Of a stretch of DNA of 40,302 bases, positions 29,067 to 31,078 are shown in pieces. Positions within the stretch are counted from its first letter, which is position 1; each line of letters begins with the position of its first letter. The stretch is taken from positions 1 to 40,302 of the forward strand of contig JALOQZ010000005.1 in the NCBI GenBank assembly GCA_025459245.1, in the 5' to 3' direction. This DNA comes from Pirellula sp. (lineage in GTDB: Bacteria > Planctomycetota > Planctomycetia > Pirellulales > Pirellulaceae). Below the pieces are notes generated by a model. The model saw nothing but the letters and a program-made list of their open reading frames with translations. It was not told where the DNA came from and searched no databases. A program made the translations under genes and the position numbers.

Positions 29067-29074
29067 ATTATACT
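29067..29074. promoter_or_regulatory. Overlapping divergent -10 elements (cupin and cimA leader)
   Basis: ATTATACT reads TATACT on plus (29069-29074) and TATAAT on minus (29072-29067). The plus element would start RNA near 29081, just before the cimA leader ORF; the minus element would start the cupin mRNA. The -35 regions are poor on both strands (TTCCGG at 29046 for plus). Divergent initiation from symmetric -10 boxes is known in bacteria; use here is inferred. Confidence 0.45.
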
Positions 29075-29085
29075 TTTTCGACCAG

Positions 29086-29172
29086 ATGGACGACTACCAA
29101 CAAACTGTATTCAACCTCATGTCCTTTACGAACGTTGCCACAGCGAGCATTACGATTCCCGGGCCCTTCTAG
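29086..29172 (+). CDS. Candidate leader peptide of cimA attenuator
   Basis: A 28-residue ORF ending in ASITIPGPF-stop, with a second in-frame ATG at 29119 that gives a 17-residue version. The Ile codons ATT at 29149 and 29155 are seven and five codons before the stop, interleaved with Thr. The TAG stop (29170-29172) overlaps the first bases of the strand that forms the antiterminator. No Shine-Dalgarno is visible; if RNA starts near 29081 the first ATG would be almost leaderless. The peptide itself need have no function: its translation would sense charged tRNA-Ile (inferred). Confidence 0.4.
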   Translation: MDDYQQTVFNLMSFTNVATASITIPGPF

Positions 29173-29248
29173 GCTTCGGGGTGCGAGACTGTTTGGAACT
29201 TCAGCACACATACCAACCCCTGAGGCCTCAAGGCATCAGGGGTTTTTT
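29157..29248 (+). promoter_or_regulatory. Candidate ribosome-mediated attenuator upstream of cimA
   Basis: Four strands can form three exclusive hairpins. 1:2 pairs 29157-29165 with 29172-29181 (9 pairs, three of them G-T, one bulge). 2:3, the antiterminator, pairs 29171-29182 with 29216-29228 (12 pairs, one bulged T). 3:4 is the terminator at 29215-29244. A ribosome at the leader stop would cover strand 2 and let the terminator form; a ribosome stalled at the Ile codons would cover strand 1 and free strand 2 to pair with 3, allowing read-through into cimA. The pairings are read from the sequence; the regulation is inferred from the trp/ilv paradigm. Confidence 0.55.
29215..29248 (+). terminator. 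Intrinsic terminator 32 bases before cimA
   Basis: AACCCCTGA (29215-29223) pairs perfectly with TCAGGGGTT (29236-29244). A G/A mismatch is followed by an inner GCC/GGC stem with a TCAA loop, and T-tract 29243-29248 follows. It lies directly upstream of cimA on the same strand, so it must be either a conditional attenuator or the end of a short independent RNA. Confidence 0.85.
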
Positions 29249-29280
29249 GTTTCCGATTTTATCGCCACACCATCACCATC

Positions 29281-30905: not shown

Positions 30906-30971
30906 GTACGCCTGCCGGCTGACTGTTAAACTAAGTGGAGAACTCGTTTAACAGTCAGCCGACAGGCGTAC
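30906..30971. repeat. Large perfect-like palindrome between cimA and msrA
   Basis: The 26-base arms 30906-30931 and 30946-30971 are inverted copies with one mismatch, separated by 14 bases. Each arm runs from GTACGCCTG outward to GTTAAAC at the loop. It could form a 25-pair hairpin in RNA from either strand and lies between the convergent cimA and msrA genes, where it may end or protect both transcripts. It has no long T-tract. It might also be a non-autonomous mobile repeat. Confidence 0.85.
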
Positions 30972-30999
30972 TCAGCCTCACATTTCACAGACACTTAGA

Positions 31000-31065
31000 A
31001 GCCTATCCGAAAACGATCGAAAACCGCGGCTAGCGCCAGAGCGGCTAATGGTTTTCGGATAGGCT
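31000..31065 (+). repeat. Palindromic intergenic repeat, copy D (complete)
   Basis: The best copy of the family: outer arms 31000-31014 and 31051-31065 (AGCCTATCCGAAAAC and its exact complement) enclose the core ACCGCGGCTAGCGCC and GCGGCTAATGG. GCGGCTA occurs twice inside. It ends 13 bases from the msrA stop codon. Confidence 0.85.
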
Positions 31066-31078
31066 CTTAGTTGTAACG

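Follow-up and report, generated by a model that had tools for sequence, protein, structure and literature searches.

An isoleucine-codon leader conserved upstream of citramalate synthase in Pirellulaceae is probably a transcription attenuator

How might a planctomycete match the production of citramalate synthase, which feeds isoleucine synthesis, to the supply of that amino acid? The question is raised by a locus in the window (the whole stretch of 40,302 nucleotides of Pirellula sp. DNA that we analysed, from a draft genome of 424 contigs that is 82% complete), for which a sequence-only reading had proposed attenuation of the trp/ilv type, in which a short leader open reading frame (ORF) carrying Ile codons precedes mutually exclusive RNA helices upstream of cimA. 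Our analysis supports this proposal through the enrichment of Ile codons, the co-evolution of helix 2:3, the presence of a terminator in 104/119 upstream regions of the family and the spacing of the elements, and we place the probability that the cimA leader is a ribosome-mediated transcription attenuator responding to isoleucine shortage at roughly 0.88. Its basis is observed in the anatomy of the leader, its conservation, the cross-genus co-evolution of helix 2:3, the amino-acid specificity and the spacing; a real and widely conserved Ile-codon leader stands before cimA.

The gene itself had been called correctly and encodes citramalate synthase (Table 1), with isopropylmalate synthase models scoring far under their own cut-offs. 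Its upstream neighbour is a divergent cupin gene, and on its downstream side lies a convergent gene for methionine sulfoxide reductase. Two long inverted repeats occupy the interval between the convergent genes, at 30906–30971 and 30991–31074, with 26-nt arms that are 96% complementary and 27-nt arms that are 81% complementary, respectively.

Table 1 Features of the cimA leader and gene in the window.
Feature	Position	Strand	Evidence or remark
-10-like hexamer TATACT of presumed leader promoter	29069..29074	+	sequence; GGATTATACT-like sequence also in G001; presumed
Leader ORF, conserved start	29119..29172	+	17 codons MSFTNVATASITIPGPF plus TAG; upstream in-frame ATG 29086 would give 28 codons
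Regulatory codons ATT ACG ATT (Ile Thr Ile)	29149..29157	+	Ile-Ile-Ile in 17/22 relatives
Strand 1; helix 1:2 of 8 pairs with one bulge	29158..29165	+	minimum-energy structure; core pairs 97% kept in genus; z -1.2 in window alone
Strand 2, overlaps stop codon	29171..29182	+	pairs with strand 1 or strand 3
Strand 3	29216..29228	+	antiterminator with strand 2, terminator with strand 4
Strand 4 and T-tract of intrinsic terminator	29232..29248	+	z -3.9; terminator in 104/119 family regions
cimA, citramalate synthase, 523 aa	29281..30852	+	TIGR00977 657.3 bits, cut-off 450

The leader ORF in the window ends in AGC ATT ACG ATT CCC GGG CCC TTC TAG, up to 29172 (I-T-I-P-G-P-F-TAG). As the sequence-only reading had noticed, its two Ile codons (ATT at 29149–29151 and 29155–29157) stand 7 and 5 codons ahead of the stop, and the stop codon (TAG, 29170–29172) overlaps the start of strand 2 (29171–29182). 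The competing helices 1:2, 2:3 and 3:4 were likewise found, with 8 pairs and one bulge in the first and, as counted before, 12 pairs and one bulge in the second (-21.1 kcal/mol). The third is an intrinsic terminator, whose stem of nine outer pairs, already described together with its T-tract, continues past one G/A mismatch into three inner pairs; the T-tract (29243–29248) ends 33 nt upstream of cimA. A simple hairpin scan, which allowed loops of 3–8 nt only, missed this terminator. Comparison with 200 dinucleotide shuffles per segment gave z -3.9 for the terminator (1/200 shuffles as good), -2.1 for the 2:3 segment (2/200), -1.2 for the 1:2 segment (21/200) and -1.65 for the leader as a whole (13/200). 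Taken alone, the window therefore holds a terminator that is clearly above chance and a helix 2:3 that is weakly so; helix 1:2 and the ORF are not. When the window was searched with Rfam covariance models, no family reached its threshold (best sub-threshold score 23.3 bits, where 56.1 is the gathering score), which speaks against a T-box or known riboswitch.

Among the 27 genomes searched from the same genus, 26 carry cimA and one, G023, has only a distant homologue; 25 of the upstream regions were read. The leader accompanies 23 of the 26 cimA genes, 22 of them as full leaders that were read and one by a model match alone (G004, whose cimA begins at the end of one contig, the model matching a leader at the end of another with 84.4 bits). 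No such leader precedes cimA in G005 and G011. A third genome, G025 (L013), keeps the terminator and a TATAAT-like site upstream of cimA without the Ile codons, the leader ORF and strand 2, and is perhaps a natural deletion of the leader.

In the 22 aligned same-genus leaders, the three key codons read Ile-Ile-Ile in 17, Ile-Thr-Ile in two (the window and its nearest relative) and Ile-Met-Ile, Val-Ile-Ile or Ile-Ile-Ser in one each. They are followed by CCC (Pro) in 21/22, and the stop is TAG in all 22, at a spacing from CCC of 9 nt in 21 and 6 nt in one. The Ile codons before the stop are thus conserved in orthologues, and the earlier remark that the leader has no run of adjacent regulatory codons holds for the window and its closest relative but not for the element, in which such a run is the usual form. 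An in-frame start 17–20 codons upstream of the stop is shared by all 22 (ATG in 20, TTG in two), so that the likely start in the window is 29119 rather than ATG 29086, which had been proposed with the same stop at 29170–29172. The 28-codon ORF from 29086 (MDDYQQTVFNLMSFTNVATASITIPGPF, then the stop) was set aside as the main product and may be a longer form.

Within the genus, the stretch from strand 2 to strand 3 differs between leaders in both length and sequence, while the Ile codons and the stop are kept, and the core pairs of helix 1:2 are 97% kept. Covariation in the stems, which had been suggested as a check on the proposed switch, did not exceed shuffles among these leaders; because the stems are nearly invariant, the comparison is uninformative at this distance, and we therefore turned to a swap test across genera.

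The wider survey covered the Pirellulaceae, where 181/241 genomes gave a cimA match (E up to 1e-120). A covariance model of the leader, R1, matched in 58/241 family genomes and 20/68 genera; its seven other-genus loci with located context all lie upstream of cimA, and a further match, in G044, lies upstream of leuA. Since the reach of this model was limited, upstream regions were fetched and scanned directly. The 119 regions comprise 25/26 of the genus, 93/155 from other genera, which were hand-picked with three large genera thinned, and G174, added for its model match. Counting as terminator-like any hairpin below -8 kcal/mol with a T-run behind it, we found one upstream of cimA in 104 of the 119, spread over 37 genera. 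The 15 regions without one fall in g45 (six, where cimA seems, by eye, to follow close behind another gene), the window's genus, g23, g37 and g59 (two each) and g28 (one).

To score leader ORFs, we required a start codon and a stop 10–100 nt before the hairpin, took the last 14 codons of the best ORF per leader and compared genus-weighted means with dinucleotide shuffles treated by the same rule. Ile averages 2.81 codons in the family leaders against 0.60 in shuffles (z 19.4) and Val 2.11 against 0.78 (z 10.1); Ala (z 4.7) and Gly (z 4.5) come next, and every amino acid other than Ile and Val stays below z 5. At least three Ile codons are present in 70 of the 103 usable leaders, where 3.7 would be expected, and 26/37 genera have at least one such leader, 11/37 having none. 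The window leader, with two Ile codons, falls below this count; in many other genera Val codons stand alongside the Ile codons. The leader Ile codons are ATT in 195/255 cases, and 31 cimA genes use ATC in 665/870, the two genome sets being not wholly identical.

In the swap test, we took the best duplex that the region upstream in each leader can form with its own strand 3 and set it against those formed with strand 3 from other genera. The own 2:3 pairing was stronger than the swapped pairing in 33/37 genera, and after removal of row and column effects it was stronger by a mean of 2.8 kcal/mol, in 32/37 genera, a value reached in 0/20,000 permutations. The five exceptions are g10, g23, g38, g61 and the window's own genus, g1 (+1.0 kcal/mol), where nearly invariant stems keep the test from being positive. 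Compared with shuffled upstream regions, helix 2:3 has a mean z of -1.9, with 46/103 leaders below -2. Position 1 of strand 3 is engaged in G:C in 14 genera and C:G in 10, and position 9 in G:C in 21 and C:G in 11, counts that are illustrative in that partners were chosen by pairing. The 2:3 pairing thus co-evolves across genera. Helix 1:2 was favoured in its own pairing in 21/35 genera (9/20,000 permutations); it is the least supported part of the element, with weak support across genera, and is not general.

Across 72 leaders with at least three Ile codons, from 27 genera and with outliers present, the distance from the end of the last Ile codon to strand 2 has a median of 11 nt (interquartile range 8–13), and the stop codon starts a median of 4 nt inside strand 2 (interquartile range -2 to 6). 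A ribosome covers about 12–14 nt beyond its A site, and a ribosome stalled on the Ile codons would therefore leave strand 2 free, while one at the stop would cover it. Transcription start, ORF translation, stalling and isoleucine-dependent termination, all four of which we infer from sequence, would then combine into a switch. RNA polymerase would start shortly before the leader ORF; with charged tRNA-Ile in ample supply, the ribosome would pass the Ile codons, reach the TAG at strand 2 and cover that strand, so that strand 3 would pair with strand 4 and transcription would end before cimA. Under isoleucine shortage, the ribosome would stall at those codons, some 11 nt short of strand 2; strand 1 would then be covered and strand 2 free for strand 3, so that the terminator could not form and cimA would be transcribed. 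Where present, helix 1:2 would set termination as the default in the case of an untranslated leader ORF.

The sequence-only reading had pointed out that the leader ORF lacks a Shine-Dalgarno sequence, and we too saw none in the window. Initiation at or near the 5' end may be the cause, since in several relatives the leader ATG coincides with the start of transcription predicted from promoter-like sites. In the window, the TATACT at 29069–29074 has no good -35 element at the usual spacing, and a simple promoter scan listed no promoter at the leader. Among leaders with at least three Ile codons and an ATG start, a promoter-like site (at least 8 of 12 positions matching, within 110 nt before the ATG) was found in 52, with an exact TTGACA in 37/52; the predicted transcription start falls -1 to 2 nt from the ATG in 10/52 and -6 to 12 nt from it in 11/52, all of these being raw counts without a shuffled control. 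Predicted starts in the narrower interval belong to G172, G106, G177, G002, G007, G008, G013, G017, G163 and G091. Some of the leader ORFs may accordingly be leaderless.

Amino-acid specificity was examined at other biosynthetic genes. Upstream of leuA, a terminator is present in 9 of 11 genomes, and six of those nine have at least four Leu codons among the last 14; Leu is enriched (z 5.9) and no leuA leader holds more than one Ile. Leu-rich leader ORFs followed by a terminator were seen in L350, L351, L352, L354, L355 and L357 (for example MINISLLLPLLLCFRRL, then the stop), and also in two leuA leaders of the Gemmata family, L385 and L386. The latter two have in common a longer peptide, LLLxxRLLGPPRGRSSRFDP, which is perhaps caused by RNA pairing. 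Upstream of trpE, no Trp-rich leader was found in the best 12 of 23 matches, 7 of the 12 being without a terminator, and upstream of ilvB no comparable leader was found in the three genomes with an ilvB match (four searched). The leader codons follow the product of the downstream gene, in line with the earlier statement that the codons sensed at cimA match the end product of its route.

These results bear on whether the hairpin might simply be a terminator, ending an upstream transcript or a small RNA next to a chance ORF, with cimA expressed from another promoter or by constant read-through. The window alone would allow this, with one strong terminator among otherwise modest signals, as would G025, which retains a terminator after loss of the leader ORF and strand 2; it is nevertheless improbable, as the upstream gene in the window is divergent and neither an Ile enrichment of z 19 nor the Leu enrichment at leuA nor the cross-genus co-evolution of helix 2:3 would be expected from it. 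A leader ORF that is translated and sensed by other means, whether nascent-peptide arrest, control of access to the start of cimA or termination by Rho, would fit the lack of generality of helix 1:2, the longer peptide shared by the two Gemmata-family leuA leaders and the similar ORF-only leaders described for Actinobacteria (PMC1262725). Such sensing seems more improbable still, given that an intrinsic terminator is present in the great majority of the family regions (104/119) and that the switch between 2:3 and 3:4 is the best supported pairing. Least credible is an RNA that senses isoleucine or tRNA-Ile directly, as a riboswitch or T-box, or that binds a regulatory protein, with the ORF incidental: Ile T-boxes exist in other phyla, yet the window has no Rfam match at gathering score, and the Ile codons and the stop are kept, whereas the spacer separating strand 2 from strand 3 is variable in both length and sequence.

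Ribosome-mediated attenuation at cimA, the preferred reading, would extend beyond the Pirellulaceae. In other families of the order, 40/113 matching genomes, chosen for spread over families, were examined and 27 gave usable leaders with a terminator; Ile is enriched at z 18.8, with at least three Ile codons in 19/27 leaders against 0.5 expected. In the phylum outside the order, 40/67 matching genomes, chosen in the same way, gave 14 usable leaders, with Ile at z 11.7 and at least three Ile codons in 12/14 against 1.7 expected. Two Gimesia contigs (L174, L183) have cimA leaders with Ile-Ile-Ile-Ile. Of the 40 genomes from outside the order, a terminator lies upstream of cimA in 7/7 of family f21 and in 9/33 of the rest, and because of this lower share beyond f21 the element is patchy outside the class. 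In the Gemmata family, cimA is present in 50/61 genomes, of which 30 were read, 20 with and 10 without a terminator; the leaders are enriched in Val (z 9.0) and Ile (z 7.3), with at least three Ile codons in 6/20 against 1.0 expected. One of them, in Gemmata sp. IIL30 (contig L203), reads VAIIATVVVITTG up to the stop and continues with CTTCGGGGT, which can pair exactly with ACCCCGAAG of its terminator. In a similar arrangement, cimA is preceded by an Ile-rich ORF and a terminator in L216, L218 and L224, contigs titled Deltaproteobacteria or Desulfobacteria.

The enterobacterial ilvGMEDA, thrABC, leuABCD and trp operons are controlled by leader-peptide attenuators with codons for the end product. 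The cimA leader resembles them in its ORF with codons of the end product, its stop at strand 2, its exclusive 2:3 and 3:4 helices and its intrinsic terminator, and differs from them in the gene, which serves the citramalate route to isoleucine, in its occurrence in Planctomycetota, in that no Shine-Dalgarno was seen in the window and in that helix 1:2 is not general. The leuA leaders of the same phylum have the same build, an end-product-rich ORF followed by a terminator, with Leu instead of Ile and Val codons. Similarly built are the ilvB leaders of Corynebacterium, Mycobacterium and Streptomyces, in which a short ORF holding branched-chain codons stands ahead of a terminator, and which differ in preceding ilvB; for a look-alike ilvB leader of S. 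coelicolor, the same source reports codon changes without effect (PMC1262725). A survey of short leader genes describes a distance peak in Planctomycetes, and the accessible portion of its text names no amino-acid attenuators there (PMC4833913). Among the matches listed in our literature search, no paper appeared to treat such a system, whether at cimA or in a planctomycete, in agreement with the sequence-only reading. The mechanism is of a known kind, and by the literature searched its use at cimA and its occurrence in this phylum would be new.

Ribosome-mediated attenuation needs a ribosome close behind RNA polymerase. How close the two are is disputed in planctomycetes: transcription and translation have been reported to be physically separated in Gemmata (Gottshall 2014, as cited in PMC6212462), and the compartment reading of the planctomycete cell has been called outdated by others (PMC6554331). 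If the leaders do work as attenuators, ribosomes would stay close behind RNA polymerase in these cells, within the roughly 100–200 nt of a leader, against strict separation, a reading that we hold with moderate confidence. If the attenuator reading is true, cimA would be switched on when isoleucine is short, and the conserved attenuators would make transcription-translation coupling in planctomycetes genetically testable, by setting changes in the leader codons against termination.
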